Source of the DNA: Loxodes magnus | Lineage: Eukaryota; Ciliophora; Karyorelictea; Loxodida; Loxodidae | Direction of reading: 5' to 3' | Assembly (NCBI GenBank): GCA_946699065.1 | Contig: CAMPDV010000272.1 | Coordinates: 248,001 to 312,000 of the forward strand | DNA length: 64,000 bases | Notes under the pieces: model-generated | What the model was told of the DNA's origin: nothing | Database searches by the model: none | The model's input: the letters and a program-made list of their open reading frames with translations, nothing else | Shown: in pieces, positions 1 through 64,000 of the stretch | Layout of the letters: each line of letters begins with the position of its first letter | How positions within the stretch are numbered: position 1 is the stretch's first letter | Position numbers and translations under genes: made by a program

Positions 1-841
1 AGTGCGATCGCTATAACTCCTGACTCGTGTCCTTTCAAGGTCCTCGTACAACTACCAGTATTGAAATCCCATACACGAATCGTTCGATCGCCACTACCAG
101 ATACGATCCATTTCGTGTCATTGCTTAGTGCGATCGCTACGAATCAATTCTCGTGTCCTTTCAAGGTCCTCGTACAACTACCAGTATTGAAATCCCATAC
201 ACGAATCGTTCGATCGCCACTACCAGATACGATCCATTTCGTGTCATTGCTTAGTGCGATCGCTACGACTCTATTCTCGTGTCCTTTCAAAGTCCTCGTA
301 CCACTACCCGTATTGAAATCCCATACACGAATCGTTCCATCGTCACTACCAGATACGATCCATTTCGTGTCATTGCTTAGTGCGATCGCTACATATCAAT
401 TCTCGTGTCCTTTCAAGGTCCTCGTACCACTACCCGTATTGAAATCCCATACACGAATCGTTCGATCGCCACTACCAGATACGATCCATTTCGTGTCATT
501 GCTTAGTGCGATCGCTACGACTCAATTCTCGTGTCCTTTCAAGGTCCTCGTACAACTACCAGTATTGAAATCCCATACACGAATCGTTCGATCGCCACTA
601 CCAGATACGATCCATTTCGTGTCATTGCTTAGTGCGATCGCTACGACTCAATTCTCGTGTCCTTTCAAGGTCCTCGTACAACTACCAGTATTGAAATCCC
701 ATACACGAATCGTTCGATCGCCACTACCAGATACGATCCATTTCGTGTCATTGCTTAGTGCGATCGCTACAACTCAATTCTCGTGTCCTTTCAAGGTCCT
801 TGTACAACTACCCGTATTGAAATCCCATACACGAATCGTTC

Positions 842-1340
842 CATCGTAACTACCAGATACGATCCATTTCGTGTCATTGCTTAGTGCGATCGCTACAACT
901 CAATTCTCGTGTCCTTTCAAGGTCCTCGTACAACTACCCGTATTGAAATCCCATACACGAATCGTTCCATCGTCACGTCCAGATACGATCCATTTCGTGT
1001 CATTGCTTAGTGCGATCGCTACAACTCATAACTCGTGTACTTTCAAGGTCCTCGTACAACTACCAGTATTGAAATCCCATACACGAATCGTTCGATCGCC
1101 ACTATTAGATACGATCCATTTCGTGTCATTGCTTAGTGCGATCGCTACGACTCTATTCTCGTGTCCTTTCAAGGTCCTTGTACAACTACCCGTATTGAAA
1201 TCCCATACACGAATCGTTCGATCGCCACTACCAGATACGATCCATTTCGTGTCATTGCTTAGTGCGATCGCTACAACTCATAACTCGTGTACTTTCAAGG
1301 TACTCGTAAAACTACCAGTATTGAAATCCCATACACGAAT
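842..1340 (-). repeat. Four-unit duplicated block, left copy
   Basis: It shares with about 3866-4364 the same order of variants, including two rare ones: a turn reading SGRDDG (near 975 and 3999) and a turn reading SNSGD (near 1105 and 4129). The displacement is 3,024 bp, exactly 24 units. The copies part in the fourth unit, where the turn is GDG on the left and GDR on the right. Confidence 0.75.
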
Positions 1341-1907
1341 CGTTCCATCGCCACTACCAGATACGATCCATTTCGTGTCATTGCTTAGTGCGATCGCTAC
1401 AACTCAATTCTCGTGTCCTTTCAAGGTCCTCGTACAACTACCCGTATTGAAATCCCATACACGAATCGTTCCATCGCCACTACCAGATACGATCCATTTC
1501 GTGTCATTGCTTAGTGCGATCGCTACAACTCAATTCTCGTGTACTTTCAAGGTCCTCGTACAACTACCAGTATTGAAATCCCATACACGAATCGTTCCAT
1601 CGTCACTACCAGATACGATCCATTTCGTGTCATTGCTTAGTGCGATCGCTACGACTCTATTCTCGTGTCCTTTCAAGGTCCTCGTACCACTACCCGTATT
1701 GAAATCCCATACACGAATCGTTCCATCGTCACTACCAGATACGATCCATTTCGTGTCATTGCTTAGTGCGATCGCTACAACTCATAACTCGTGTACTTTC
1801 AAGGTACTCGTAAAACTACCAGTATTGAAATCCCATACACGAATCGTTCCATCGCCACTACCAGATACGATCCATTTCGTGTCATTGCTTAGTGCGATCG
1901 CTCCAAC

Positions 1908-2306
1908 TCAATTCTCGTGTCCTTTCAAGGTCCTCGTACAACTACCCGTATTGAAATCCCATACACGAATCGTTCGATCGCCACTACCAGATACGATCCA
2001 TTTCGTGTCATTGCTTAGTGCGATCGCTATAACTCCTGACTCGTTTCCTTTCAAGGTCCTCGTACAACTACCCGTATTGAAATCCCATACACGAATCGTT
2101 CGATCGCCACTACCAGATACGATCCATTTCGTGTCATTGCTTAGTGCGATCGCTATAACTCCTGACTCGTGTCCTTTCAAGGTCCTCGTACAACTACCAG
2201 TATTGAAATCCCATACACGAATCGTTCCATCGTCACTACCAGATACGATCCATTTCGTGTCATTGCTTAGTGCGATCGCTATAACTCCTGACTCGTGTCC
2301 TTTCAA
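1908..2306 (-). CDS. Stop-free WD40 stretch, four units
   Basis: The frame is open from 2411 to the TGA at 1908-1910; the listed start is the first TTG. Three consecutive heads are of the S-G-V type (GGA at the variable codon), one with GNES instead of GHES (His to Asn). Turns are DDG, GDR and GDR. This cluster of GGA units is the densest in the left flank and is why the run stays open. No ATG is present. Confidence 0.35.
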   Translation of the reverse strand: MKGHESGVIAIALSNDTKWIVSGSDDGTIRVWDFNTGSCTRTLKGHESGVIAIALSNDTKWIVSGSGDRTIRVWDFNTGSCTRTLKGNESGVIAIALSNDTKWIVSGSGDRTIRVWDFNTGSCTRTLKGHEN

Positions 2307-2411
2307 GGTACTCGTAAAACTACCAGTATTGAAATCCCATACACGAATCGTTCGATCGCCACTACCAGATACGATCCATTTCGTGTCATTGCTTAGTGCG
2401 ATCGCTCCAAC

Positions 2412-2684
2412 TCAATCCTCGTGTCCTATCAAGGTCCTCGTACAACTACCCGTATTGAAATCCCATACACGAATCGTTCGATCGTCACTACCAGATACGA
2501 TCCATTTCGTGTCATTGCTTAGTGCGATCGCTATAACTCCTGACTCGTGTCCTTTCAAGGTCCTCGTACAACTACCAGTATTGAAATCCCATACACGAAT
2601 CGTTCCATCGTCACTACCAGATACGATCCATTTCGTGTCATTGCTTAGTGCGATCGCTACGACTCTATTCTCGTGTCCTTTCAA
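2412..2684 (-). CDS. Stop-free WD40 stretch, three units
   Basis: The frame is open from 2789 to the TGA at 2412-2414, directly adjoining the four-unit run at its left. Heads are GHENRVVA and GHESGVIA. The last junction reads LIGHED (Lys to Ile, Asn to Asp), a rare variant. The listed start is a TTG inside the Leu-Lys junction of a unit. Confidence 0.3.
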   Translation of the reverse strand: MKGHENRVVAIALSNDTKWIVSGSDDGTIRVWDFNTGSCTRTLKGHESGVIAIALSNDTKWIVSGSDDRTIRVWDFNTGSCTRTLIGHED

Positions 2685-3865
2685 GGTCCTCGTACAACTA
2701 CCCTTATTGAAATCCCATACACGAATCGTTCGATCGCCACTACCAGATACGATCCATTTCGTGTCATTGCTTAGTGCGATCGCTCCAACTCAATCCTCGT
2801 GTCCTTTCAAGGTCCTCGTACAACTACCAGTATTGAAATCCCATACACGAATCGTTCGATCGCCACTACCAGATACGATCCATTTCGTGTCATTGCTTAG
2901 TGCGATCGCTACGACTCTATTCTCGTGTCCTTTCAAGGTCCTCGTACAACTACCAGTATTGAAATCCCATACACGAATCGTTCGATCGCCACTACCAGAT
3001 ACGATCCATTTCGTGTCATTGCTTAGTGCGATCGCTACAACTCAATTCTCGTGTCCTTTCAAGGTCCTCGTACAACTACCAGTATTGAAATCCCATACAC
3101 GAATCGTTCCATCGTCACTACCAGATACGATCCATTTCGTGTCATTGCTTAGTGCGATCGCTACGAATCAATTCTCGTGTCCTTTCAAGGTCCTCGTACA
3201 ACTACCCTTATTGAAATCCCATACACGAATCGTTCCATCGTCACTACCAGATACGATCCATTTCGTGTCATTGCTTAGTGCGATCGCTATAACTCCTGAC
3301 TCGTGTCCTTTCAAGGTCCTCGTACAACTACCAGTATTGAAATCCCATACACGAATCGTTCCATCGTCACTACCAGATACGATCCATTTCGTGTCATTGC
3401 TTAGTGCGATCGCTACAACTCATAACTCGTGTACTTTCAAGGTCCTTGTACAACTACCCGTATTGAAATCCCATACACGAATCGTTCCATCGTCACTACC
3501 AGATACGATCCATTTCGTGTCATTGCTTAGTGCGATCGCTACGACTCTATTCTCGTGTCCTTTCAAGGTCCTCGTACAACTACCAGTATTGAAATCCCAT
3601 ACCCGAATCGTTCCATCGTAACTACCAGATACGATCCATTTCGTGTCATTGCTTAGTGCGATCGCTACAACTCAATTCTCGTGTCCTTTCAAGGTCCTCG
3701 TACAACTACCCGTATTGAAATCCCATACACGAATCGTTCGATCGCCACTACCAGATACGATCCATTTCGTGTCATTGCTTTGTGCGATCGCTCCAACTAC
3801 AAACTCGTGTCCTTTCAAGGTCCTTGTACAACTACCAGTATTGAAATCCCATACACGAATCGTTC

Positions 3866-7674: not shown

Positions 7675-9282
7675 GTGTCATTGCTTAGTGCGATCGCTAC
7701 AACTCATAACTCGTGTACTTTCAAGGTACTCGTAAAACTACCAGTATTGAAATCCCATACACGAATCGTTCGATCGCCACTACCAGATACGATCCATTTC
7801 GTGTCATTGCTTAGTGCGATCGCTACGACTCTATTCTCGTGTCCTTTCAAGGTCCTCGTACAACTACCAGTATTGAAATCCCATACACGAATCGTTCCAT
7901 CGTAACTACCAGATACGATCCATTTCGTGTCATTGCTTAGTGCGATCGCTACAACTCATAACTCGTGTCCTTTCAACGTCCTTGTACAACTACCAGTATT
8001 GAAATCCCATACACGAATCGTTCCATCGCCACTACCAGATACGATCCATTTCGTGTCATTGCTTAGTGCGATCGCTACAACTACAAACTCCTTTCCTTTC
8101 AAGGTCCTCGTACAACTACCAGTATTGAAATCCCATACCCGAATCGTTCCATCGTAACTACCAGATACGATCCATTTCGTGTCATTGCTTAGTGCGATCG
8201 CTATAACTCAATTCTCGTGTCCTTTCAAGGTCCTCGTACAACTACCCGTATTGAAATCCCATACCCGAATCGTTCCATCGTAACTACCAGATACGATCCA
8301 TTTCGTGTCATTGCTTAGTGCGATCGCTACGACTACAAACTCGTGTCCTTTCAAGGTCCTCTTACAACTACCCGTATTGAAATCCCATACCCGAATCGTT
8401 CCATCGTAACTACCAGATACGATCCATTTCGTGTCATTGCTTAGTGCGATCGCTACGACTCAATTCTCCTTTCCTTTCAAGGTCCTCGTACAACTACCCG
8501 TATTGAAATCCCATACCCGAATCGTTCCATCGTAACTACCAGACACGATCCATTTCGTGTCATTGCTTAGTGCGATCGCTACAACTCAATTCTCGTGTCC
8601 TTTCAAGGTCCTCGTACAACTACCCGTATTGAAATCCGATACACGAATCGTTCCATCGTCACTACCAGATACGATCCATTTCGTGTCATTGCTTAGTGCG
8701 ATCGCTACGACTCAATTCTCCTTTCCTTTCAAGGTCCTCGTACAACTACCCGTATTGAAATCCCATACACGAATCGTTCCATCGTAACTACCAGATACGA
8801 TCCATTTCGTGTCATTGCTTAGTGCGATCGCTACAACTACAAACTCCTTTCCTTTCAAGGTCCTCGTACAACTACCAGTATTGAAATCCCATACACGAAT
8901 CGTTCGATCGCCACTACCAGATACGATCCATTTCGTGTCATTGCTTAGTGCGATCGCTACGACTCAATTCTCGTGTCCTTTCAAGGTCCTCGTACAACTA
9001 CCAGTATTGAAATCCCATACCCGAATCGTTCCATCGTAACTACCAGATACGATCCATTTCGTGTCATTGCTTAGTGCGATCGCTACGACTCAATTCTCGT
9101 GTCCTTTCAAGGTCCTTGTACAAATACCCGTATTGAAATCCCATACACGAATCGTTCGATCGCCACTACCAGATACGATCCATTTCGTGTCATTGCTTAG
9201 TGCGATCGCTACAACTCATAACTCGTGTACTTTCAAGGTACTCGTAAAACTACCAGTATTGAAATCCCATACACGAATCGTT
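7675..9282 (-). repeat. About 13-unit block, third copy of the 4273-5880 series
   Basis: It repeats 4273-5880 with a displacement of 3,402 bp (27 units), so this series is present three times (about 4273, 7675 and 9691). It contains the CAACGTCC marker near 7975. The copy parts from the left one within the unit at 9187, where the turn is DDG instead of GDR. Confidence 0.75.
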
Positions 9283-15191: not shown

Positions 15192-16027
15192 ACACGAATC
15201 GTTCGATCGCCACTACCAGATACGATCCATTTCGTGTCATTGCTTAGTGCGATCGCTACAACTCAATTCTCGTGTCCTTTCAAGGTCCTCTTACAACTAC
15301 CCGTATTGAAATCCCATACCCGAATCGTTCCATCGTAACTACCAGATATCCATTTCGTGTCATTGCTTAGTGCGATCGCTACAACTCAATTCTCGTGTCC
15401 TTTCAAGTATTGAAATCCCATACCCGAATCGTTCCATCGTAACTACCAGATACGATCCATTTTGTCAATTCTCCTTTCCTTTCAACTTGTACAACTACCA
15501 GTATTGAAATCCCATACACGAATCGTTCCATCGTAACTACCAGATACCCGATCGCTACGACTCAATTCTCGTGTCCTTTCAAGGTCCTTGTACAACTACC
15601 AGTATTGAAATCCCATACACGAATCGTTCCAATCATTGCTTAGTGCGATCGCTACAACTCAATTCTCGTGTCCTTTCAACGAAATCCCATACACGAATCG
15701 TTCGAACTACCAGATACGATCCATTTCGTGTCATTGCTTAGTGCGATCGCTACAACTCAATTCTCGTGTCCTTTCAAGGTCCGTACAATCGAAATCCCAT
15801 ACACGAATCGTTCGATCGCCACTACTACCAGATACGATCCATTTCGTGTCATTGAATCTTAGCTTAGTGCTACAACTCAATTCTCGATCGCTACGATCCA
15901 TTTCGTGTCATTGCTTAGTGCGACTCAATTCTCGTGTCCTTTCAAACTACCAGTATTGAAATCCCATACCCTCGTAACTACCAGATACGATCCATTTTTC
16001 AAGGTCCTCGCCACTACCAGATACAAC
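15136..16027. other. Scrambled zone of truncated and fused units
   Basis: About 0.9 kb in which pieces of the 126-bp unit are joined with many internal deletions and a few insertions. It begins with a one-base loss near 15136. Later events include a three-base loss at 15347, a 19-base loss near 15407, and larger losses near 15465, 15547, 15632 and 15680. A rearranged stretch lies at 15854-15900. No foreign sequence is present; every piece is array sequence. The WD40 frame is lost. It could be an assembly consensus error at a repeat junction or a real mutated breakpoint. Confidence 0.8.
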
Positions 16028-16365
16028 TACCAGTATTGAAATCCCATACACGAATCGTTCGATCGCCACTACCAGATACGATCCATTTCGTGTCATTGCT
16101 TAGTGCGATCGCTACAACTCAATTCTCGTGTCCTTTCAAGGTCCTCGTACAACTACCAGTATTGAAATCCCATACCCGAATCGTTCCATCGTAACTACCA
16201 GATACGATCCATTTCGTGTCATTGCTTAGTGCGATCGCTACAACTCAATTCTCGTGTCCTTTCAAGGTCCTCGTACAACTACCAGTATTGAAATCCCATA
16301 CACGAATCGTTCGATCGCCACTACCAGATACGATCCATTTCGTGTCATTGCTTAGTGCGATCGCT

Positions 16366-16380
16366 ACAACTCAAACTCCT
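16366..16380. other. One-base deletion, frameshift
   Basis: The usual ACAACTACAAACTCC reads ACAACTCAAACTCC here. This is a single-base loss that shifts the minus-strand WD40 frame within a GKEF-type head. Confidence 0.75.
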
Positions 16381-16498
16381 TTCCTTTCAAGGTCCTCGTA
16401 CAACTACCCGTATTGAAATCCCATACACGAATCGTTCGATCGCCACTACCAGATACGATCCATTTCGTGTCATTGCTTAGTGCGATCGCTACGACTCA

Positions 16499-16532
16499 AT
16501 TCGTAACTCGTGATCCTTTCATTGCTTAGGTC
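16499..16532. other. Irregular unit with net 12-base gain
   Basis: Extra bases, including a misplaced copy of the CATTGCTTAG piece that normally lies elsewhere in the unit, interrupt the junction between two units. The net gain of 12 keeps the frame outside the lesion. Confidence 0.75.
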
Positions 16533-16604
16533 CTCGTACAACTACCAGTATTGAAATCCCATACCCGAATCGTTCCATCGTAACTACCAGATACGATCCA
16601 TTTC

Positions 16605-18070
16605 GTGTCATTGCTTAGTGCGATCGCTACGACTCAATTCTCCTTTCCTTTCAAGGTCCTTGTACAACTACCAGTATTGAAATCCCATACACGAATCGTT
16701 CCATCGTAACTACCAGATACGATCCATTTCGTGTCATTGCTTAGTGCGATCGCTACGACTCAATTCTCGTGTCCTTTCAAGGTCCTTGTACAACTACCAG
16801 TATTGAAATCCCATACACGAATCGTTCCATCGCCACTACCAGATACGATCCATTTCGTGTCATTGCTTAGTGCGATCGCTACAACTACAAACTCCTTTCC
16901 TTTCAAGGTCCTCGTACAACTACCAGTATTGAAATCCCATACCCGAATCGTTCCATCGTAACTACCAGATACGATCCATTTCGTGTCATTGCTTAGTGCG
17001 ATCGCTATAACTCAATTCTCGTGTCCTTTCAAGGTCCTCGTACAACTACCCGTATTGAAATCCCATACACGAATCGTTCCATCGTAACTACCAGATACGA
17101 TCCATTTCGTGTCATTGCTTAGTGCGATCGCTACGACTCAATTCTCGTGTCCTTTCAAGGTCCTCTTACAACTACCCGTATTGAAATCCCATACCCGAAT
17201 CGTTCCATCGTAACTACCAGATACGATCCATTTCGTGTCATTGCTTAGTGCGATCGCTACGACTCAATTCTCCTTTCCTTTCAAGGTCCTCGTACAACTA
17301 CCCGTATTGAAATCCCATACCCGAATCGTTCCATCGTAACTACCAGACACGATCCATTTCGTGTCATTGCTTAGTGCGATCGCTACAACTCAATTCTCGT
17401 GTCCTTTCAAGGTCCTCGTACAACTACCCGTATTGAAATCCGATACACGAATCGTTCCATCGTCACTACCAGATACGATCCATTTCGTGTCATTGCTTAG
17501 TGCGATCGCTACGACTCAATTCTCCTTTCCTTTCAAGGTCCTCGTACAACTACCAGTATTGAAATCCCATACACGAATCGTTCGATCGCCACTACCAGAT
17601 ACGATCCATTTCGTGTCATTGCTTAGTGCGATCGCTATAACTCCTGACTCGTTTCCTTTCAAGGTCCTCGTACAACTACCCGTATTGAAATCCCATACAC
17701 GAATCGTTCCATCGTAACTACCAGATACGATCCATTTCGTGTCATTGCTTAGTGCGATCGCTACGACTCAATTCTCGTGTCCTTTCAAGGTCCTCGTACA
17801 ACTACCAGTATTGAAATCCCATACCCGAATCGTTCCATCGTAACTACCAGATACGATCCATTTCGTGTCATTGCTTAGTGCGATCGCTACGACTCAATTC
17901 TCGTGTCCTTTCAAGGTCCTTGTACAAATACCCGTATTGAAATCCCATACACGAATCGTTCGATCGCCACTACCAGATACGATCCATTTCGTGTCATTGC
18001 TTAGTGCGATCGCTACGACTCAATTCTCCTTTCCTTTCAAGGTCCTCGTACAACTACCCGTATTGAAATC
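16605..18070 (-). repeat. About 12-unit block shared with 31674-33139, left copy
   Basis: It matches 31674-33139 at a displacement of 15,069 bp. The copies are similar but not identical: near 17070 the left has CGT where the right has CGG, and near 17135 the heads differ. Both copies lie immediately to the right of a scrambled zone. Confidence 0.65.
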
Positions 18071-18437: not shown

Positions 18438-18510
18438 GATACGATCCATCGTGAAGTGCGATCCCACTATTCTCGTGTCCTTTCAACGAATCGTTCCGAA
18501 TCGCCACTAC
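18438..18510. other. Scrambled junction
   Basis: Parts of two units are fused (the unit runs from ACCAGATACGATCC into GTGAAGTGCGATCCC and then CGAATCGTTCCGAATCG). All pieces derive from the array. Confidence 0.75.
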
Positions 18511-18690
18511 CAGATACGATCCATTTCGTGTCATTGCTTAGTGCGATCGCTACGACTCAATTCTCGTGTCCTTTCAAGGTCCTCGTACAACTACCAGTAT
18601 TGAAATCCCATACCCGAATCGTTCCATCGTAACTACCAGATACGATCCATTTCGTGTCATTGCTTAGTGCGATCGCTACGACTCAATTCT

Positions 18691-18720
18691 CGTAACTGTC
18701 CTTTCAAGGTCCTACGTACA
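18691..18720. other. Two small insertions (net +5), frameshift
   Basis: Four bases (AACT) are added in the TCTCGTGTCC motif and one base in CCTTGTAC. Together they shift the WD40 frame. They lie directly left of the 12.5-kb duplicated block. Confidence 0.75.
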
Positions 18721-21700
18721 AATACCCGTATTGAAATCCCATACCCGAATCGTTCCATCGTAACTACCAGATACGATCCATTTCGTGTCATTGCTTAGTG
18801 CGATCGCTACAACTCAATTCTCGTGTCCTTTCAAGGTCCTCGTACAACTACCCGTATTGAAATCCGATACACGAATCGTTCCATCGTCACTACCAGATAC
18901 GATCCATTTCGTGTCATTGCTTAGTGCGATCGCTACGACTCAATTCTCCTTTCCTTTCAAGGTCCTCGTACAACTACCAGTATTGAAATCCCATACACGA
19001 ATCGTTCGATCGCCACTACCAGATACGATCCATTTCGTGTCATTGCTTAGTGCGATCGCTATAACTCCTGACTCGTTTCCTTTCAAGGTCCTCGTACAAC
19101 TACCCGTATTGAAATCCCATACACGAATCGTTCCATCGTAACTACCAGATACGATCCATTTCGTGTCATTGCTTAGTGCGATCGCTACGACTCAATTCTC
19201 GTGTCCTTTCAAGGTCCTCGTACAACTACCAGTATTGAAATCCCATACCCGAATCGTTCCATCGTAACTACCAGATACGATCCATTTCGTGTCATTGCTT
19301 AGTGCGATCGCTACGACTCAATTCTCGTGTCCTTTCAAGGTCCTTGTACAAATACCCGTATTGAAATCCCATACACGAATCGTTCGATCGCCACTACCAG
19401 ATACGATCCATTTCGTGTCATTGCTTAGTGCGATCGCTACGACTCAATTCTCCTTTCCTTTCAAGGTCCTCGTACAACTACCCGTATTGAAATCCCATAC
19501 CCGAATCGTTCCATCGTAACTACCAGACACGATCCATTTCGTGTCATTGCTTAGTGCGATCGCTACAACTCAATTCTCGTGTCCTTTCAAGGTCCTCGTA
19601 CAACTACCCGTATTGAAATCCGATACACGAATCGTTCCATCGTCACTACCAGATACGATCCATTTCGTGTCATTGCTTAGTGCGATCGCTACGACTCAAT
19701 TCTCCTTTCCTTTCAAGGTCCTCGTACAACTACCCGTATTGAAATCCCATACACGAATCGTTCCATCGTAACTACCAGATACGATCCATTTCGTGTCATT
19801 GCTTAGTGCGATCGCTACAACTACAAACTCCTTTCCTTTCAAGGTCCTCGTACAACTACCAGTATTGAAATCCCATACACGAATCGTTCGATCGCCACTA
19901 CCAGATACGATCCATTTCGTGTCATTGCTTAGTGCGATCGCTACGACTCAATTCTCGTGTCCTTTCAAGGTCCTCGTACAACTACCAGTATTGAAATCCC
20001 ATACCCGAATCGTTCCATCGTAACTACCAGATACGATCCATTTCGTGTCATTGCTTAGTGCGATCGCTACGACTCAATTCTCGTGTCCTTTCAAGGTCCT
20101 TGTACAAATACCCGTATTGAAATCCCATACACGAATCGTTCGATCGCCACTACCAGATACGATCCATTTCGTGTCATTGCTTAGTGCGATCGCTACAACT
20201 CAATTCTCGTGTCCTTTCAAGGTCCTCGTACAACTACCAGTATTGAAATCCCATACACGAATCGTTCGATCGCCACTACCAGATACGATCCATTTCGTGT
20301 CATTGCTTAGTGCGATCGCTACAACTCAATTCTCGTGTCCTTTCAAGGTCCTTGTACAACTACCAGTATTGAAATCCCATACCCGAATCGTTCCATCGTA
20401 ACTACCAGATACGATCCATTTCGTGTCATTGCTTAGTGCGATCGCTACGACTCAATTCTCCTTTCCTTTCAAGGTCCTTGTACAACTACCAGTATTGAAA
20501 TCCCATACACGAATCGTTCCATCGTAACTACCAGATACGATCCATTTCGTGTCATTGCTTAGTGCGATCGCTACGACTCAATTCTCGTGTCCTTTCAAGG
20601 TCCTTGTACAACTACCAGTATTGAAATCCCATACACGAATCGTTCCATCGCCACTACCAGATACGATCCATTTCGTGTCATTGCTTAGTGCGATCGCTAC
20701 AACTACAAACTCCTTTCCTTTCAAGGTCCTCGTACAACTACCAGTATTGAAATCCCATACCCGAATCGTTCCATCGTAACTACCAGATACGATCCATTTC
20801 GTGTCATTGCTTAGTGCGATCGCTACAACTCAATTCTCGTGTCCTTTCAAGGTCCTCTTACAACTACCCGTATTGAAATCCCATACCCGAATCGTTCCAT
20901 CGTAACTACCAGATACGATCCATTTCGTGTCATTGCTTAGTGCGATCGCTACAACTCAATTCTCGTGTCCTTTCAAGGTCCTCGTACAACTACCCGTATT
21001 GAAATCCGATACACGAATCGTTCGATCGCCACTACCAGATACGATCCATTTCGTGTCATTGCTTAGTGCGATCGCTACAACTCAATTCTCGTGTCCTTTC
21101 AAGGTCCTCGTACAACTACCAGTATTGAAATCCCATACCCGAATCGTTCCATCGTAACTACCAGATACGATCCATTTCGTGTCATTGCTTAGTGCGATCG
21201 CTACGACTCAATTCTCGTGTCCTTTCAAGGTCCTTGTACAAATACCCGTATTGAAATCCCATACACGAATCGTTCGATCGCCACTACCAGATACGATCCA
21301 TTTCGTGTCATTGCTTAGTGCGATCGCTACAACTACAAACTCCTTTCCTTTCAAGGTCCTCGTACAACTACCAGTATTGAAATCCCATACCCGAATCGTT
21401 CCATCGTAACTACCAGATACGATCCATTTCGTGTCATTGCTTAGTGCGATCGCTATAACTCAATTCTCGTGTCCTTTCAAGGTCCTCGTACAACTACCCG
21501 TATTGAAATCCCATACCCGAATCGTTCCATCGTAACTACCAGATACGATCCATTTCGTGTCATTGCTTAGTGCGATCGCTACGACTACAAACTCGTGTCC
21601 TTTCAAGGTCCTCTTACAACTACCCGTATTGAAATCCCATACCCGAATCGTTCCATCGTAACTACCAGATACGATCCATTTCGTGTCATTGCTTAGTGCG

Positions 21701-31265: not shown

Positions 31266-31522
31266 CGTGCTTCAAGTCTTACAACTACCCGTATTGAAAT
31301 CCCATCGAATCGTTATCGACTACCAGATACGATCCATTTCGTGTCATTGCTTAGTGCGATCGCTACAACTCAAGTGTCCTTTCAAGGTCCTGTACAACTA
31401 CCAGTATTGAAATCCCATACACGAATCGTTCGATCACTACCAGATACGATCCATTTCGTGTCATTGCTTAGTGCGATCGCTACAACTACTTTCAGACTAC
31501 CCGTATTGATCCGAATTCGATC
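31266..31522. other. Scrambled zone
   Basis: About 0.26 kb of shortened units with several deletions (near 31266, 31305, 31375, 31391, 31435 and 31490-31520). It lies exactly where the left copy of the 12.5-kb duplication and the truncated 37-unit repeat end, and just before the block at 31674 that repeats 16605. Confidence 0.8.
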
Positions 31523-31673
31523 GCCACTACCAGATACGATCCATTTCGTGTCATTGCTTAGTGCGATCGCTACGACTCAATTCTCGTGTCCTTTCAAGGT
31601 CCTCGTACAACTACCAGTATTGAAATCCCATACCCGAATCGTTCCATCGTAACTACCAGATACGATCCATTTC

Positions 31674-38447: not shown

Positions 38448-39189
38448 ACCCGAATCGTTCCATCGTAACTACCAGATACGATCCATTTCGTGTCATTGCT
38501 TAGTGCGATCGCTACGACTCAATTCTCCTTTCCTTTCAAGGTCCTTGTACAACTACCAGTATTGAAATCCCATACACGAATCGTTCCATCGTAACTACCA
38601 GATACGATCCATTTCGTGTCATTGCTTAGTGCGATCGCTACGACTCAATTCTCGTGTCCTTTCAAGGTCCTTGTACAACTACCAGTATTGAAATCCCATA
38701 CACGAATCGTTCCATCGCCACTACCAGATACGATCCATTTCGTGTCATTGCTTAGTGCGATCGCTACAACTACAAACTCCTTTCCTTTCAAGGTCCTCGT
38801 ACAACTACCAGTATTGAAATCCCATACCCGAATCGTTCCATCGTAACTACCAGATACGATCCATTTCGTGTCATTGCTTAGTGCGATCGCTATAACTCAA
38901 TTCTCGTGTCCTTTCAAGGTCCTCGTACAACTACCCGTATTGAAATCCCATACCCGAATCGTTCCATCGTAACTACCAGATACGATCCATTTCGTGTCAT
39001 TGCTTAGTGCGATCGCTACGACTACAAACTCGTGTCCTTTCAAGGTCCTCTTACAACTACCCGTATTGAAATCCCATACCCGAATCGTTCCATCGTAACT
39101 ACCAGATACGATCCATTTCGTGTCATTGCTTAGTGCGATCGCTACGACTCAATTCTCCTTTCCTTTCAAGGTCCTCGTACAACTACCCG

Positions 39190-39200
39190 TATTACATACA
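39190..39200. other. Six-base in-frame deletion removing the WD dipeptide
   Basis: The sequence reads CCCGTATTACATACACG instead of CCCGTATTGAAATCCCATACACG. On the minus strand the run TGG GAT TTC AAT becomes TGT AAT, so this unit loses its WD core but keeps the frame. Confidence 0.75.
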
Positions 39201-42200
39201 CGAATCGTTCCATCGTAACTACCAGATACGATCCATTTCGTGTCATTGCTTAGTGCGATCGCTACGACTACAAACTCGTGTCCTTTCAAGGTCCTCTTAC
39301 AACTACCCGTATTGAAATCCCATACCCGAATCGTTCCATCGTAACTACCAGATACGATCCATTTCGTGTCATTGCTTAGTGCGATCGCTACGACTCAATT
39401 CTCCTTTCCTTTCAAGGTCCTCGTACAACTACCCGTATTGAAATCCCATACACGAATCGTTCCATCGTAACTACCAGATACGATCCATTTCGTGTCATTG
39501 CTTAGTGCGATCGCTACGACTCAATTCTCGTGTCCTTTCAAGGTCCTCGTACAACTACCCGTATTGAAATCCCATACACGAATCGTTCGATCGCCACTAC
39601 CAGATACGATCCATTTCGTGTCATTGCTTAGTGCGATCGCTCCAACTCAATTCTCGTGTACTTTCAAGGTCCTCGTACAACTACCCGTATTGAAATCCCA
39701 TACACGAATCGTTCGATCGCCACTACCAGATACGATCCATTTCGTGTCATTGCTTAGTGCGATCGCTATAACTCAATCCTCGTGTCCTTTCAAGGTCCTC
39801 GTACAACTACCCGTATTGAAATCCCATACACGAATCGTTCGATCGCCACTACCAGATACGATCCATTTCGTGTCATTGCTTAGTGCGATCGCTATAACTC
39901 CTGACTCGTTTCCTTTAAAGGTCCTCGTACAACTACCAGTATTGAAAACCCATACCCGAATCGTTCCATCGTAACTACCAGATACGATCCATTTCGTGTC
40001 ATTGCTTAGTGCGATCGCTATAACTCAATTCTCGTGTCCTTTCAAGGTCCTCGTACAACTACCCGTATTGAAATCCCATACACGAATCGTTCGATCGCCA
40101 CTACCAGATACGATCCATTTCGTGTCATTGCTTAGTGCGATCGCTACAACTCTATTCTCGTGTCCTTTCAAGGTCCTCGTACAACTACCCGTATTGAAAT
40201 CCCATACCCGAATCGTTCCATCGTAACTACCAGATACGATCCATTTCGTGTCATTGCTTAGTGCGATCGCTATAACTCAATTCTCGTGTCCTTTCAAGGT
40301 CCTCGTACAACTACCAGTATTGAAATCCCATACACGAATCGTTCGATCGCCACTACCAGATACGATCCATTTCGTGTCATTGCTTAGTGCGATCGCTACG
40401 ACTCAATTCTCGTGTCCTTTCAAGGTCCTCGTACAACTACCAGTATTGAAATCCCATACCCGAATCGTTCCATCGTAACTACCAGATACGATCCATTTCG
40501 TGTCATTGCTTAGTGCGATCGCTACGACTCAATTCTCCTTTCCTTTCAAGGTCCTTGTACAACTACCAGTATTGAAATCCCATACACGAATCGTTCCATC
40601 GTAACTACCAGATACGATCCATTTCGTGTCATTGCTTAGTGCGATCGCTACGACTCAATTCTCGTGTCCTTTCAAGGTCCTCGTACAACTACCAGTATTG
40701 AAATCCCATACCCGAATCGTTCCATCGTAACTACCAGATACGATCCATTTCGTGTCATTGCTTAGTGCGATCGCTACGACTCAATTCTCCTTTCCTTTCA
40801 AGGTCCTTGTACAACTACCAGTATTGAAATCCCATACACGAATCGTTCCATCGTAACTACCAGATACGATCCATTTCGTGTCATTGCTTAGTGCGATCGC
40901 TACGACTCAATTCTCGTGTCCTTTCAAGGTCCTTGTACAACTACCAGTATTGAAATCCCATACACGAATCGTTCCATCGCCACTACCAGATACGATCCAT
41001 TTCGTGTCATTGCTTAGTGCGATCGCTACAACTACAAACTCCTTTCCTTTCAAGGTCCTCGTACAACTACCAGTATTGAAATCCCATACCCGAATCGTTC
41101 CATCGTAACTACCAGATACGATCCATTTCGTGTCATTGCTTAGTGCGATCGCTATAACTCAATTCTCGTGTCCTTTCAAGGTCCTCGTACAACTACCCGT
41201 ATTGAAATCCCATACCCGAATCGTTCCATCGTAACTACCAGATACGATCCATTTCGTGTCATTGCTTAGTGCGATCGCTACGACTACAAACTCGTGTCCT
41301 TTCAAGGTCCTCTTACAACTACCTGTATTGAAATCCCATACCCGAATCGTTCCATCGTAACTACCAGATACGATCCATTTCGTGTCATTGCTTAGTGCGA
41401 TCGCTACGACTCAATTCTCCTTTCCTTTCAAGGTCCTCGTACAACTACCCGTATTGAAATCCCATACCCGAATCGTTCCATCGTAACTACCAGATACGAT
41501 CCATTTCGTGTCATTGCTTAGTGCGATCGCTACGACTCAATTCTCCTTTCCTTTCAAGGTCCTCGTACAACTACCCGTATTGAAATCCCATACACGAATC
41601 GTTCGATCGCCACTACCAGATACGATCCATTTCGTGTCATTGCTTAGTGCGATCGCTACAACTCAATTCTCGTGTCCTTTCAAGGTCCTCGTACAACTAC
41701 CCGTATTGAAATCCCATACACGAATCGTTCGATCGCCACTACCAGATACGATCCATTTCGTGTCATTGCTTAGTGCGATCGCTATAACTCCTGACTCGTT
41801 TCCTTTCAAGGTCCTCGTACAACTACCCGTATTGAAATCCCATACACGAATCGTTCCATCGCCACTACCAGATACGATCCATTTCGTGTCATTGCTTAGT
41901 GCGATCGCTACGACTCAATTCTCCTTTCCTTTCAAGGTCCTCTTACAACTACCCGTATTGAAATCCCATACACGAATCGTTCGATCGCCACTACCAGATA
42001 CGATCCATTTCGTGTCATTGCTTAGTGCGATCGCTCCAACTCAATTCTCCTTTCCTTTCAAGGTCCTTGTACAACTACCCGTATTGAAATCCCATACACG
42101 AATCGTTCCATCGTAACTACCAGATACGATCCATTTCGTGTCATTGCTTAGTGCGATCGCCATAACTCCTGACTCGTGTCCTTTCAAGGTCCTCGTACAA

Positions 42201-43951: not shown

Positions 43952-46900
43952 GGTCCTCGTACAACTACCAGTATTGAAATCCCATACCCGAATCGTTCCA
44001 TCGTAACTACCAGATACGATCCATTTCGTGTCATTGCTTAGTGCGATCGCTATAACTCAATTCTCGTGTCCTTTCAAGGTCCTCGTACAACTACCAGTAT
44101 TGAAATCCCATACACGAATCGTTCGATCGCCACTACCAGATACGATCCATTTCGTGTCATTGCTTAGTGCGATCGCTACGACTCAATTCTCGTGTCCTTT
44201 CAAGGTCCTCGTACAACTACCCGTATTGAAATCCCATACACGAATCGTTCGATCGCCACTACCAGATACGATCCATTTCGTGTCATTGCTTAGTGCGATC
44301 GCTCCAACTCAATTCTCGTGTACTTTCAAGGTCCTCGTACAACTACCCGTATTGAAATCCCATACACGAATCGTTCGATCGCCACTACCAGATACGATCC
44401 ATTTCGTGTCATTGCTTAGTGCGATCGCTATAACTCAATCCTCGTGTCCTTTCAAGGTCCTCGTACAACTACCCGTATTGAAATCCCATACACGAATCGT
44501 TCGATCGCCACTACCAGATACGATCCATTTCGTGTCATTGCTTAGTGCGATCGCTATAACTCCTGACTCGTTTCCTTTAAAGGTCCTCGTACAACTACCA
44601 GTATTGAAAACCCATACCCGAATCGTTCCATCGTAACTACCAGATACGATCCATTTCGTGTCATTGCTTAGTGCGATCGCTATAACTCAATTCTCGTGTC
44701 CTTTCAAGGTCCTCGTACAACTACCCGTATTGAAATCCCATACACGAATCGTTCGATCGCCACTACCAGATACGATCCATTTCGTGTCATTGCTTAGTGC
44801 GATCGCTACAACTCTATTCTCGTGTCCTTTCAAGGTCCTCGTACAACTACCCGTATTGAAATCCCATACCCGAATCGTTCCATCGTAACTACCAGATACG
44901 ATCCATTTCGTGTCATTGCTTAGTGCGATCGCTATAACTCAATTCTCGTGTCCTTTCAAGGTCCTCGTACAACTACCAGTATTGAAATCCCATACACGAA
45001 TCGTTCGATCGCCACTACCAGATACGATCCATTTCGTGTCATTGCTTAGTGCGATCGCTACGACTCAATTCTCGTGTCCTTTCAAGGTCCTCGTACAACT
45101 ACCAGTATTGAAATCCCATACCCGAATCGTTCCATCGTAACTACCAGATACGATCCATTTCGTGTCATTGCTTAGTGCGATCGCTACGACTCAATTCTCC
45201 TTTCCTTTCAAGGTCCTTGTACAACTACCAGTATTGAAATCCCATACACGAATCGTTCCATCGTAACTACCAGATACGATCCATTTCGTGTCATTGCTTA
45301 GTGCGATCGCTACGACTCAATTCTCGTGTCCTTTCAAGGTCCTCGTACAACTACCAGTATTGAAATCCCATACCCGAATCGTTCCATCGTAACTACCAGA
45401 TACGATCCATTTCGTGTCATTGCTTAGTGCGATCGCTACGACTCAATTCTCCTTTCCTTTCAAGGTCCTTGTACAACTACCAGTATTGAAATCCCATACA
45501 CGAATCGTTCCATCGTAACTACCAGATACGATCCATTTCGTGTCATTGCTTAGTGCGATCGCTACGACTCAATTCTCGTGTCCTTTCAAGGTCCTTGTAC
45601 AACTACCAGTATTGAAATCCCATACACGAATCGTTCCATCGCCACTACCAGATACGATCCATTTCGTGTCATTGCTTAGTGCGATCGCTACAACTACAAA
45701 CTCCTTTCCTTTCAAGGTCCTCGTACAACTACCAGTATTGAAATCCCATACCCGAATCGTTCCATCGTAACTACCAGATACGATCCATTTCGTGTCATTG
45801 CTTAGTGCGATCGCTATAACTCAATTCTCGTGTCCTTTCAAGGTCCTCGTACAACTACCCGTATTGAAATCCCATACCCGAATCGTTCCATCGTAACTAC
45901 CAGATACGATCCATTTCGTGTCATTGCTTAGTGCGATCGCTACGACTACAAACTCGTGTCCTTTCAAGGTCCTCTTACAACTACCTGTATTGAAATCCCA
46001 TACCCGAATCGTTCCATCGTAACTACCAGATACGATCCATTTCGTGTCATTGCTTAGTGCGATCGCTACGACTCAATTCTCCTTTCCTTTCAAGGTCCTC
46101 GTACAACTACCCGTATTGAAATCCCATACCCGAATCGTTCCATCGTAACTACCAGATACGATCCATTTCGTGTCATTGCTTAGTGCGATCGCTACGACTC
46201 AATTCTCCTTTCCTTTCAAGGTCCTCGTACAACTACCCGTATTGAAATCCCATACACGAATCGTTCGATCGCCACTACCAGATACGATCCATTTCGTGTC
46301 ATTGCTTAGTGCGATCGCTACAACTCAATTCTCGTGTCCTTTCAAGGTCCTCGTACAACTACCCGTATTGAAATCCCATACACGAATCGTTCGATCGCCA
46401 CTACCAGATACGATCCATTTCGTGTCATTGCTTAGTGCGATCGCTATAACTCCTGACTCGTTTCCTTTCAAGGTCCTCGTACAACTACCCGTATTGAAAT
46501 CCCATACACGAATCGTTCCATCGCCACTACCAGATACGATCCATTTCGTGTCATTGCTTAGTGCGATCGCTACGACTCAATTCTCCTTTCCTTTCAAGGT
46601 CCTCTTACAACTACCCGTATTGAAATCCCATACACGAATCGTTCGATCGCCACTACCAGATACGATCCATTTCGTGTCATTGCTTAGTGCGATCGCTCCA
46701 ACTCAATTCTCCTTTCCTTTCAAGGTCCTTGTACAACTACCCGTATTGAAATCCCATACACGAATCGTTCCATCGTAACTACCAGATACGATCCATTTCG
46801 TGTCATTGCTTAGTGCGATCGCCATAACTCCTGACTCGTGTCCTTTCAAGGTCCTCGTACAACTACCCGTATTGAAATCCCATACACGAATCGTTCGATC

Positions 46901-51436: not shown

Positions 51437-51583
51437 GCACCAGATACGATCCATTTCGTGTCATTGCTTAGTGCGATCGCTCCAACTACAAACTCGTGTC
51501 CTTTCACTACCAGATACGATCCATTTCGTGTCATTGCTTAGTGCGATCGCTCCAACTACAAAGTAGGTCCTGTACAATACCAG
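51437..51583. other. Scrambled junction
   Basis: A four-base loss in the GDR turn near 51438 is followed by two shortened units (losses near 51506 and 51562-51577). It lies exactly at the right end of the block shared with 12589-14958. Confidence 0.8.
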
Positions 51584-51920
51584 TATTGAAATCCCATACC
51601 CGAATCGTTCCATCGTAACTACCAGATACGATCCATTTCGTGTCATTGCTTAGTGCGATCGCTATAACTCAATTCTCGTGTCCTTTCAAGGTCCTCGTAC
51701 AACTACCAGTATTGAAATCCCATACACGAATCGTTCCATCGCCACTACCAGATACGATCCATTTCGTGTCATTGCTTAGTGCGATCGCTACAACTCAATT
51801 CTCGTGTCCTTTCAAGGTCCTCGTACAACTACCCGTATTGAAATCCCATACACGAATCGTTCGATCGCCACTACCAGATACGATCCATTTCGTGTCATTG
51901 CTTAGTGCGATCGCTCCAAC

Positions 51921-60257: not shown

Positions 60258-60614
60258 GGTCCTCGTACAACTACCAGTATTGAAATCCCATACACGAATC
60301 GTTCCATCGTAACTACCAGATACGATCCATTTCGTGTCATTGCTTAGTGCGATCGCTACAACTCAATTCTCGTGTCCTTTCAAGGTCCTCGTACAACTAC
60401 CAGTATTGAAATCCCATACCCGAATCGTTCCATCGTAACTACCAGATACGATCCATTTCGTGTCATTGCTTAGTGCGATCGCTCCAACTCAATCCTCGTG
60501 TCCTTTCAAGGTCCTCGTACAACTACCAGTATTGAAATCCCATACACGAATCGTTCGATCGCCACTACCAGATACGATCCATTTCGTGTCATTGCTTAGT
60601 GCGATCGCTACGAC

Positions 60615-60887: not shown

Positions 60888-60992
60888 GGTCCTCTTACAA
60901 CTACCAGTATTGAAATCCCATACACGAATCGTTCCATCGTAACTACCAGATACGATCCATTTCGTGTCATTGCTTAGTGCGATCGCTACGAC

Positions 60993-61769
60993 TCAATTCT
61001 CGTGTCCTTTCAAGGTCCTCGTACAACTACCAGTATTGAAATCCCATACACGAATCGTTCCATCGCCACTACCAGATACGATCCATTTCGTGTCATTGCT
61101 TAGTGCGATCGCTACGACTCTATTCTCGTGTCCTTTCAAGGTCCTTGTACAACTACCAGTATTGAAATCCCATACACGAATCGTTCCATCGTCACTACCA
61201 GATACGATCCATTTCGTGTCATTGCTTTGTGCGATCGCTCCAACTACAAACTCGTGTTCTTTCAAGGTCCTTGTACAACTACCAGTATTGAAATCCCATA
61301 CACGAATCGTTCCATCGTCACTACCAGATACGATCCATTTCGTGTCATTGCTTAGTGCGATCGCTACGACTCTATTCTCGTGTCCTTTCAAGGTCCTTGT
61401 ACAACTACCCGTATTGAAATCCCATACACGAATCGTTCCATCGTAACTACCAGATACGATCCATTTCGTGTCATTGCTTAGTGCGATCGCTATAACTCCT
61501 GACTCGTGTCCTTTCAAGGTCCTCGTACAACTACCCGTATTGAAATCCCATACACGAATCGTTCCATCGTCACTACCAGATACGATCCATTTCGTGTCAT
61601 TGCTTAGTGCGATCGCTCCAACTACAAACTCGTGTCCTTTCAAGGTCCTCGTACAACTACCAGTATTGAAATCCCATACACGAATCGTTCCATCGTCACT
61701 ACCAGATACGATCCATTTCGTGTCATTGCTTTGTGCGATCGCTCCAACTACAAACTCGTGTCCTTTCAA
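60993..61769 (-). CDS. Stop-free WD40 stretch, seven units between TGA codons
   Basis: With the standard code the minus frame is open from just left of the TGA at 61875-61877 to the TGA ending at 60993, exactly 882 bp or seven WD40 units, the number of blades in a classic beta-propeller. The coordinates given start at the first TTG (LKGHEF); there is no ATG, so independent initiation is doubtful. Units read GHEFVVGA, GHESGVIA, GHENRVVA and one EHEF (Gly to Glu). All retain GH, SGSxDxT and WD. It lies directly left of a three-unit stop-free run (60615-60992). Best viewed as a fragment of the array frame rather than a gene with its own promoter. Confidence 0.4.
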   Translation of the reverse strand: MKGHEFVVGAIAQSNDTKWIVSGSDDGTIRVWDFNTGSCTRTLKGHEFVVGAIALSNDTKWIVSGSDDGTIRVWDFNTGSCTRTLKGHESGVIAIALSNDTKWIVSGSYDGTIRVWDFNTGSCTRTLKGHENRVVAIALSNDTKWIVSGSDDGTIRVWDFNTGSCTRTLKEHEFVVGAIAQSNDTKWIVSGSDDGTIRVWDFNTGSCTRTLKGHENRVVAIALSNDTKWIVSGSGDGTIRVWDFNTGSCTRTLKGHEN

Positions 61770-63512
61770 GGTCCTTGTACAACTACCAGTATTGAAATCC
61801 CATACACGAATCGTTCGATCGCCACTACCAGATACGATCCATTTCGTGTCATTGCTTAGTGCGATCGCTACAACTCAATTCTCGTGTCCTTTCAAGGTCC
61901 TCGTACAACTACCCGTATTGAAATCCCATACACGAATCGTTCGATCGCCACTACCAGATACGATCCATTTCGTGTCATTGCTTAGTGCGATCGCTACGAC
62001 TCAATTCTCGTGTCCTTTCAAGGTCCTCGTACAACTACCCTTATTGAAATCCCATACACGAATCGTTCCATCGCCACTACCAGATACGATCCATTTCGTG
62101 TCATTGCTTAGTGCGATCGCTCCAACTCAATCCTCGTGTCCTTTCAAGGTCCTCGTACAACTACCAGTATTGAAATCCCATACACGAATCGTTCGATCGC
62201 CACTACCAGATACGATCCATTTCGTGTCATTGCTTAGTGCGATCGCTACGACTCTATTCTCGTGTCCTTTCAAGGTCCTCGTACCACTACCCGTATTGAA
62301 ATCCCATACACGAATCGTTCCATCGTCACTACCAGATACGATCCATTTCGTGTCATTGCTTAGTGCGATCGCTACGAATCAATTCTCGTGTCCTTTCAAG
62401 GTCCTCGTACAACTACCCGTATTGAAATCCCATACACGAATCGTTCCATCGTCACTACCAGATACGATCCATTTCGTGTCATTGCTTTGTGCGATCGCTA
62501 CAACTCAATTCTCGTGTCCTTTCAAGGTCCTCGTACAACTACCCGTATTGAAATCCCATACACGAATCGTTCCATCGTCACTACCAGATACGATCCATTT
62601 CGTGTCATTGCTTAGTGCGATCGCTACAACTCAATTCTCGTGTCCTTTCAAGGTCCTCGTACAACTACCCGTATTGAAATCCCATACACGAATCGTTCCA
62701 TCGTCACTACCAGATACGATCCATTTCGTGTCATTGCTTAGTGCGATCGCTCCAACTACAAACTCGTGTCCTTTCAAGGTCCTCGTACAACTACCAGTAT
62801 TGAAATCCCATACACGAATCGTTCGATCGCCACTACCAGATACGATCCATTTCGTGTCATTGCTTAGTGCGATCGCTACGACTCAATTCTCGTGTCCTTT
62901 CAAGGTCCTCGTACAACTACCCGTATTGAAATCCCATACACGAATCGTTCGATCGTAACTACCAGATACGATCCATTTCGTGTCATTGCTTAGTGCGATC
63001 GCTACGAATCAATTCTCGTGTCCTTTCAAGGTCCTCGTACAACTACCCGTATTGAAATCCCATACACGAATCGTTCCATCGTCACTACCAGATACGATCC
63101 ATTTCGTGTCATTGCTTAGTGCGATCGCTACAACTCAATTCTCGTGTCCTTTCAAGGTCCTCGTACAACTACCCGTATTGAAATCCCATACACGAATCGT
63201 TCCATCGTCACTACCAGATACGATCCATTTCGTGTCATTGCTTAGTGCGATCGCTACAACTCAATTCTCGTGTCCTTTCAAGGTCCTTGTACAACTACCA
63301 GTATTGAAATCCCATACACGAATCGTTCCATCGTCACTACCAGATACGATCCATTTCGTGTCATTGCTTAGTGCGATCGCTCCAACTACAAACTCGTGTC
63401 CTTTCAAGGTCCTCGTACAACTACCAGTATTGAAATCCCATACACGAATCGTTCCATCGTCACTACCAGATACGATCCATTTCGTGTCATTGCTTAGTGC
63501 GATCGCTACGAC

Positions 63513-63785
63513 TCAATTCTCGTGTCCTTTCAAGGTCCTCGTACAACTACCCGTATTGAAATCCCATACACGAATCGTTCGATCGCCACTACCAGATACG
63601 ATCCATTTCGTGTCATTGCTTAGTGCGATCGCTATAACTCCTGACTCGTGTCCTTTAAAGGTCCTCGTACAACTACCCTTATTGAAATCCCATACACGAA
63701 TCGTTCCATCGTCACTACCAGATACGATCCATTTCGTGTCATTGCTTTGTGCGATCGCTCCAACTACAAACTCGTGTCCTTTCAA
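63513..63785 (-). CDS. Stop-free WD40 stretch, three units
   Basis: The frame is open from 63890 to the TGA at 63513-63515. Heads are GHEFVVGA with AQS, then GHESGVIA; one junction reads NKGSCTRTFK (Thr to Lys and Leu to Phe). It is the stop-free run nearest the right edge. Confidence 0.3.
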   Translation of the reverse strand: MKGHEFVVGAIAQSNDTKWIVSGSDDGTIRVWDFNKGSCTRTFKGHESGVIAIALSNDTKWIVSGSGDRTIRVWDFNTGSCTRTLKGHEN

Positions 63786-64000
63786 GGTCCTCGTACAACT
63801 ACCAGTATTGAAATCCCATACACGAATCGTTCGATCGCCACTACCAGATACGATCCATTTCGTGTCATTGCTTAGTGCGATCGCTACAACTCAATTCTCG
63901 TGTCCTTTCAAGGTCCTCGTACAACTACCCGTATTGAAATCCCATACACGAATCGTTCCATCGTCACTACCAGATACGATCCATTTCGTGTCATTGCTTA

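Follow-up and report, generated by a model that had tools for sequence, protein, structure and literature searches.

The WD40 Array and Its Variable Codon

The stretch of DNA described here, termed the window, covers 64,000 bp (positions 248,001 to 312,000) of contig CAMPDV010000272.1, hereafter C272, in an assembly of the karyorelictean ciliate Loxodes magnus (GCA_946699065.1; 705,730,643 bp in 7,843 contigs). From end to end it is a single tandem array of a 126-bp unit, and each unit of its minus strand reads as a 42-codon WD40 repeat once TGA is taken as tryptophan (Trp). We consider the window to be part of a satellite of about 195 kb that was amplified from the WD40 exon of a kinase-WD40 gene, in a genome where UGA encodes Trp, and we give this reading a probability of roughly 0.8.

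Tandem Repeats Finder (TRF) returned a period of 378 bp (three units) along the entire window and a period of 126 bp in four long pieces. Counting by anchors gave 508, with 488 of the 507 spacings being exactly 126 bp, and the 488 units of exact length fall into 122 distinct sequences. The other 19 spacings are irregular, and 10 of them break the WD40 frame. Codons are numbered from the T of TLKG as codon 1, which puts the codon before the V of GHExxV at codon 8. The features of the window are listed below.

1..64000, minus strand: array of WD40 units of 126 bp (42 codons), about a third of a ~195-kb array with anchors from C272:185753 to C272:380276
63033..63914, minus strand: seven successive units, which in the UGA = Trp reading give seven Pfam WD40 stretches and an AlphaFold2 model resembling WD40 propellers
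63891..63893, minus strand: example of a TGA at codon 8, in the first of those seven units (position counted from the segment coordinates and the translation)
51459..51641, minus strand: three irregular spacings (112, 70 and 122 bp), all out of the WD40 frame
38491..39241, minus strand: two irregular spacings (120 and 138 bp), both in frame
31342..31549, minus strand: three irregular spacings (90, 117 and 82 bp), the last one out of frame
18454..18786, minus strand: three irregular spacings (131, 75 and 84 bp), the first one out of frame
15235..16606, minus strand: eight irregular spacings (138, 125, 91, 153, 118, 264, 230 and 125 bp), five of them out of frame

An earlier reading of this DNA made from its letters alone (the sequence-only reading) had noticed TGA at one fixed codon of hundreds of WD40 units and had found TGG there in none, and both points hold: codon 8 is TGA in 335 of the 498 registered units of the window and TGG in 0 of 498. 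The alternatives it named, AGA, GGA and GTA, are also those of the 488 exact-length units (TGA 330, GTA 79, AGA 47, GGA 32), and TGG is in normal use, as it had said, at codon 20 (KW, 495 of 498 units) and codon 33 (VW, 473 of 498). Its open runs ending in HEN, HED, HEL or KEN agree with the residue preceding the codon-8 TGA, which is N in 307 units, L in 19 and D in 9, KEN units being present too. The rise in TGA share from about half in the flanks to four fifths in the core does exist, but is milder than was supposed, with 57–77% per 8-kb bin. Ten other in-frame stop codons occur in the registered units (two TGA, two TAA and six TAG). The codon-8 site is constant in place and variable in residue, and a 29-base TGG version of it has no exact match in the whole 706-Mb assembly.

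The array has a guanine plus cytosine (GC) content of 45%, and codons 7, 8, 10, 26 and 28 show 42 residue combinations among the 498 units. At a lag of 37 units, 11% of the window units are identical, which suggests a block duplication within the array; the plus-strand open frames 41508–42116 and 46170–46778 likewise recur 4,662 bp apart, exactly 37 units. These and other open reading frames of the plus strand (up to 916 aa) were rejected as genes, since the WD40 reading lies on the minus strand and the plus strand of the window holds no TGG in any of its three frames. All 488 exact-length units carry the palindrome GCGATCGC, made by the codons for AIA, which in our view resembles the HIP1 palindrome of cyanobacteria; despite this word, a cyanobacterial origin is ruled out by the ciliate code in a 706-Mb assembly.

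Extent, Borders and Coding Constraint

WD40 units were present in 11 of 11 samples of 0.5 kb taken from 195 to 380 kb of C272, and in 0 of 9 samples from 1–180 kb and from 390 kb onward. The array anchors at 185,753 and 380,276 delimit about 195 kb, by length about 1,540 units, the window and its neighbours being the parts read between the samples. The macronuclear assembly of 706 Mbp is reported to contain 231 Mbp of tandem repeats (PMC11441545), and the array is presumably among them. Its 5′ end joins an 87/88-bp satellite directly (C272:380.3–401.8 kb) and carries no kinase exon, while the 3′ end passes into AT-rich DNA without WD40 units that by eye is like the DNA beside a second array, found on another contig (C17, 35.4 to ~67.2 kb). 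The C17 array also joins the same satellite on its 5′ side, in units of 84–89 bp. Both array/satellite junctions have a short word in common (GATCGGACTAA vs GATCGCACTAA). The sequence of the 3′ junction, searched genome-wide with up to three mismatches, occurs only at the C272 and C17 sites. C272:173.3–180.5 kb matched no Pfam family in any of the six frames and nothing in Rfam, and the stretch downstream of the array gave no Pfam match when read as protein; three fetched loci (L061, L063 and L001) had no Rfam match.

For a test of coding constraint, 716 exact-spaced units were kept out of 742 C272 anchors. These units hold 54 single-base variants, 41 nonsynonymous and 13 synonymous, where random placement would give 42.3 nonsynonymous (95% range 36–48). 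Long, head-to-tail and free of coding constraint as far as its sequence tells, the array is most likely satellite DNA.

Kinase-WD40 Genes and Their Linked Arrays

On the 3′ side of the array, 12.5 kb from it and on the same strand, C272 carries a gene (at about 171–173.2 kb) in which a 951-bp kinase exon and a 20-bp intron precede five WD40 units resembling those of the array and two that are diverged; Pfam recognizes a kinase and seven WD40 stretches in it. C17 holds a gene of the same type, again with a 20-bp intron and with six WD40 units. Introns of L. magnus have a mean length of 19.3 bp (PMC11441545). Between the C17 and C272 kinase exons, the ratio of nonsynonymous to synonymous substitution rates (dN/dS) is 0.16. 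Seven WD40 units also occur in the genes on C3931, C3557, C13 and C432, thus in five of the seven genes read; the gene on C60 may be broken, because its WD40 part enters a short repeat after three units. Genome-wide, the kinase exon has 125 scored matches, the C17 gene counted among them. The N-terminal part is a protein kinase, presumably of the TKL type, and no NACHT or HET domain appeared among the best 25 of 52 and of 51 Pfam families. These genes would encode a predicted recognition propeller joined to a kinase.

WD40 arrays were found on at least eight other contigs, and kinase-WD40 genes also lie near the best-scoring arrays, on the same strand, on C1503, C9, C620 and C1832. In total, six of the nine arrays seen share one layout, with the array 11–67 kb away on the 5′ side of the gene and on the same strand; the distances on these four contigs are upper bounds, taken from the best WD40 matches listed. 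On C119 the array is ~700 kb from the kinase, and the arrays of C6957 and C18 have no neighbouring kinase among the matches listed. One contig start read as a control, that of C18 (1–250), turned out to be a 126-bp WD40 array with a different type of sequence (94% identity at lag 126).

What is new here is a large kinase-WD40 family with hypervariable codons and linked WD40 arrays. The main text of the L. magnus genome paper contains no mention of WD40, WD-40, WD repeat, beta-propeller, kinase or satellite (PMC11441545), and in a library that lacks most subscription papers we found no paper on Loxodes with WD40, and among the papers listed for ciliate WD40 kinases and for WD40 satellites none dealt with this subject.

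Hypervariable Codons and Their Resemblance to Fungal HET-D/HET-E

We compared gene units in two subfamilies. Subfamily A (32 units from seven genes) comprises the C17 and C272 genes and five other best matches to the kinase exon; C432 was counted although its units are the most diverged, the partial fourth unit of C60 was dropped, and C104 was fetched and excluded for its differing units. Subfamily B (21 units from five genes) is of the TFTGHADSVLSIAISPDQKWIVSASYDDTIKVWDFQTGSCLR type, quite different in sequence, and its loci were chosen for having an array and a kinase among the best 150 matches listed. The most variable codons are 26, 8, 7 and 10, then 36, 3 and 28 in A, and 10, 26, 28 and 8 in B, so that codons 8, 10, 26 and 28 rank 2, 4, 1 and 7 of 42 in A and 4, 1, 2 and 3 in B. 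If codons were exchangeable, such rank sums would have chances of about 1e-4 (A) and 9e-6 (B), values that overstate the significance since the units are related. At these four codons of the gene units the proportion of nonsynonymous differences (pN) is 0.50 and that of synonymous differences (pS) 0.02; the remaining codons have a dN/dS of 0.30.

Trp at codons 8, 10, 26 and 28 of the gene units is always TGA (19/19 in A, 6/6 in B), and at other codons it is mostly TGG (63 TGG and 11 TGA in A, 40 and 2 in B). Codon 8 itself is TGA in 7 and TGG in none of the 32 A units. The third base at codons 8, 10 and 28 is A in all 32 of them, and therefore the codon-8 TGA is the Trp member of an NNA set (TGA, GGA, GTA, AGA and others). 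The TGA of the window is one allele of hypervariable codon 8, beside glycine (Gly, GGA), valine (GTA) and arginine (Arg, AGA). Similarly, glutamine (Gln) at codon 28 of the B gene units is always TAA (9/9). Six B arrays carry TCA at codon 8 in 52 and TGA in 11 of 63 units, so a majority of TGA at this codon is not general to WD40 arrays. In the array read at C6957:7001–8000, codon 8 is serine (Ser) in seven of seven units.

In the Podospora proteins HET-D and HET-E, diversifying selection acts on two pairs of codons, 7 with 9 and 25 with 27. The pairs flank conserved residues and lie on the propeller in its d-a loop and b-c turn (PMC1805685), a pattern described again in a later long-read study (PMC12222747). 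The Loxodes codons 8/10 and 26/28, mapped onto them by motif and spacing, have the same spacing and setting. The likeness to the HNWD family consists of two hypervariable pairs 18 codons apart, each around a conserved residue, signs of exchange within the family, and near-identical WD40 units within several, not all, of the Loxodes genes. HNWD genes have WD40 units of high internal identity; in Loxodes the nearest unit of the same gene differs by 0–2 of 126 bases for most units of C432 and for the internal ones of C3931 and C3557, with distances of 4–5 in C272, 7–11 in C17, 8–12 in C13 and 9–15 in C60. The differences are that the partner domain is a kinase instead of HET-NACHT, that the host is a ciliate, and that there are arrays of hundreds to more than 1,000 units. 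A recognition role of the kinase-WD40 family is inferred from this comparison.

Two seven-unit segments, in the UGA = Trp reading, give full Pfam WD40 matches. An AlphaFold2 model of seven window units (mean predicted local distance difference test, pLDDT, 72; predicted template modelling score, pTM, 0.69) places codons 26–28 in a turn between strands and codons 8–10 in the strand following the linker from the preceding unit. The WD40 domain of Thermomonospora PkwA (5yzv) matches the window units in sequence, and its fold has a template modelling (TM) score of 0.79–0.80 to the model; the entry is named a serine/threonine kinase, and the link is one of general WD40 similarity.

UGA as Tryptophan and Its Decoding

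The authors of the L. magnus genome use NCBI table 27, where UGA is Trp or stop depending on position (PMC11441545). In our listed set of 136 scored protein kinase matches, all except one contain an in-frame TAA, TAG or TGA. We aligned 30 fetched kinases, masked every stop codon and tallied the residues of the same columns. At the 21 TGA codons, 13 of the 14 strong-consensus columns are Trp, and Trp is enriched 72-fold over background, vs 81-fold for the TGG control; the invariant kinase Trp column, which we take to be that of the DxWSxG motif, holds 22 TGG, 7 TGA and 1 TAT. At TAA and TAG no residue is enriched as strongly as Gln (6.3-fold and 7.5-fold), the CAA control giving 11.5-fold. Moreover, TGG encodes the Trp of the WD pair in 698 of 716 units of the C272 array, and TGA encodes it in 29 of 29 units of the C17 array; the 32 gene units have 20 TGG, 10 TGA and 2 TGT. 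As for UGA serving also as the only stop, by its nearness to the mRNA end, the C17 and C272 genes show two nearby TGA codons ahead of AT-rich DNA.

The tRNA-Trp with a UCA anticodon, which the sequence-only reading had proposed to look for, did not appear: the 76 matches to a UCA anticodon-arm pattern (two mismatches allowed; reversed control 12) were all CCA, and a quite different UCA tRNA could be missed, since the search began from the arms of known genes. The 20-base anticodon arm of a tRNA-Trp(CCA) occurs in 72 exact copies, all on C148 (155459–209565), 66 of them in one run with a spacing of ~241 bp. Two loci were fetched, with eight copies between them. Each copy is a complete tRNA-Trp(CCA) gene, the eight being identical (Rfam 58.9 bits), and in them the top pair of the anticodon stem is an unpaired U.C, leaving a 4-bp stem; two tRNA-Trp(CCA) genes on C110 have a 5-bp stem. 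A T-run lies past the end of the C148 copies where the downstream sequence was printed. An earlier tRNA pattern search had given 20 places vs 17 in the reversed control, and ARAGORN found 0 tRNA in ten of them that were fetched.

A tRNA-Trp(CCA) with a 4-bp stem is a known route to reading UGA in Blastocrithidia and Condylostoma and has also been reported for Blepharisma and Loxodes (PMC13092985), so the decoding mechanism is known. The U.C top pair is described for Amoebophrya and Condylostoma (PMC12005148), and in the latter a UCA tRNA-Trp likewise went undetected (PMC4967479). L. magnus resembles these cases in the CCA anticodon, the U.C top pair and the lack of UCA among the 76 matches, and differs in its tandem run of 66 copies, an array of which the available portions of two of these sources make no mention (PMC13092985, PMC12005148). 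UGA would be decoded by an amplified 4-bp-stem tRNA-Trp(CCA), not by a UCA tRNA.

From the TGA codons in the kinase Trp columns and the array of 4-bp-stem tRNA-Trp(CCA), it follows that UGA is Trp in this genome. The proposal of a reassigned code is upheld genome-wide, and adenosine-to-inosine editing of UGA, which had been offered beside it, would not be needed. The code agrees with table 27 (Loxodes, Parduczia) in having UGA at Trp positions and UAA/UAG enriched at Gln positions; it was already known for karyorelicts and is not new here, only its setting being so, in a hypervariable codon of a repeat.

When eRF1 was searched for, three matches were obtained. Two of them are similar genes on C196 (19713–20081 and 54613–54981) whose motif beside NIKS is altered. 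These two close eRF1-like genes read GRAQNIKS and FLCENTF, to be compared with what we take as the textbook motifs, TASNIKS and YxCxxxF.

Origin of the Array and Alternative Explanations

The satellite would have arisen by amplification of the WD40 exon of a kinase-WD40 gene. Quite improbable, in our judgement, is that the array instead forms the C-terminal part of one or several giant expressed genes with hundreds to more than 1,000 WD40 repeats. Such a gene would fit the 488 of 507 spacings that keep the WD40 frame over long runs and the full Pfam matches of both segments scanned, and the GC content of 45% can be set beside the 33.5% published for coding sequence and 18.6% for 3′ untranslated regions (PMC11441545). 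However, the array-like units of the kinase-WD40 genes have a GC content of 44–48%, and the GC of the array is therefore inherited. The array is probably not a gene, because its 5′ end meets the 87/88-bp satellite without a kinase exon, its frame is lost at more than half of the irregular spacings and its ratio of nonsynonymous to synonymous variants is neutral. The dead array that the sequence-only reading had weighed against recoding was to that extent largely right. Its further step, a nonsense change from TGG to TGA that spread through the dead array by gene conversion, is not needed and, as a change that arose once with UGA remaining a stop, is to us practically untenable. The non-coding look of the array and the use of TGG for the other two Trp of the unit would suit it, but family genes, whose C17 and C272 kinase exons are constrained, also have TGA at this codon (7 TGA and no TGG in 32 units), no TGG form of the site in its exact context exists in the genome, and TGA occupies conserved Trp columns of 30 kinases, which refutes the idea unless those kinases are pseudogenes.

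Some observations do weigh against the satellite reading. The comparison restricted to rare variants (count ≤5) also agrees with neutrality, with 14 nonsynonymous variants of 20 where 14.5 are expected, but is limited in power by that number, and the pairwise dN/dS of the array outside the hypervariable codons is 0.44, not 1, although this may be variation inherited from the genes. As for the code, the consensus of strong columns is more often glutamate (Glu) than Gln at TAA (Glu 11, Gln 7) and also at TAG (Glu 6, lysine (Lys) 6, Gln 5). The reading of UAA and UAG as Gln is for this reason weaker than that of UGA as Trp; the CAA control looks alike (Lys 8, Glu 7, Gln 7). Finally, the length and the junctions of the array may be partly assembly effects, since the L. 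magnus authors hold misassembled tandem repeats responsible for the unequal sizes of their assemblies (PMC11441545). The stronger form of this concern, a repeat count that is largely an artefact of a much shorter array, appears unlikely to us. It would draw on the clustering of the irregular spacings at five places and on the recurring 37-unit block, but the units are diverse, as the number of distinct sequences indicates, and at least eight other contigs have WD40 arrays.

Unequal exchange or gene conversion may carry repeat units among genes and arrays. Of the four C17 gene units compared, the first three differ by 1, 2 and 2 bases from array units on C272, C17 and C272, respectively, and a single base separates the first C272 gene unit from a unit of the C17 array. 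The fourth C17 and fifth C272 units, by contrast, differ by 12–17 bases from both arrays. On average, the distance of the C17 and C272 genes to each other's array is 3.7 in both cases, against 8.0 and 10.0 to their own, with the C17 array sampled by 29–32 units, and in subfamily B none of five genes is closest to its own array, in small array samples of 7–14 units each. Movement of units between loci therefore fits, and simple local copying is disfavoured.

Another proposal is that the arrays are maintained as silent reservoirs of modules, from which gene conversion would bring WD40 units into the kinase-WD40 genes and in this way diversify their recognition surface. We hold this to be possible, yet on balance doubtful. 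The shared layout of six of nine arrays, the 1–2 base distances of the first C17 units and the 42 residue combinations kept in the window speak for such a role. On the other side, the linkage is to the subfamily and not to the exact neighbour, as the nearness of the C17 and C272 genes to each other's array and the subfamily B result indicate; the fourth C17 and fifth C272 units are far from both arrays; and three arrays, those of C119, C6957 and C18, depart from the layout. The distances are compatible with transfer in either direction.

Possible Meaning for Recognition Proteins

A tentative picture, to us less likely than not, is that a large family of kinase-WD40 recognition genes of Loxodes is diversified in the manner of fungal allorecognition receptors, with nearby stocks of hundreds to more than 1,000 WD40 modules supplying units and with reassigned stop codons serving as ordinary alleles. 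If this were true, changes at the hypervariable sites from Gly, Arg, Ser or Lys codons that are nonsense in the standard code would yield Trp or Gln, since UGA = Trp and UAA = Gln serve as alleles. The genes and arrays offer a natural example of diversity carried by reassigned stop codons, the code itself being known and only confirmed here. What is new is that a seemingly meaningless ciliate satellite consists of receptor-like modules, and that the hypervariable codons of its source genes match those of fungal allorecognition receptors despite a different partner domain. Two questions become testable: by what means a single-celled predator might diversify the proteins it uses for recognition, and whether protein modules are kept in store in satellite arrays.

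Position of Kinase Matches at Contig Ends

Of 27 kinase matches lying within 15 kb of a contig start, 26 point their WD40 end toward the contig end. The core word of an AT-rich satellite of ~80 bp was present in 8 of 14 contig starts read beside such matches (C620 in a variant form) and in 0 of 4 control starts. Starts with this satellite are those of C9, C620, C399, C31, C5, C17, C119 and C12; it was also seen at the end of C3931 and, in samples, over C272:1–160500, and the end of C3557 shows by eye a shortened form. C1078, C2078 and C5589 begin alike over the 170 bases printed, and each has a kinase match at position 8039, which suggests redundant contigs or common chromosome ends.

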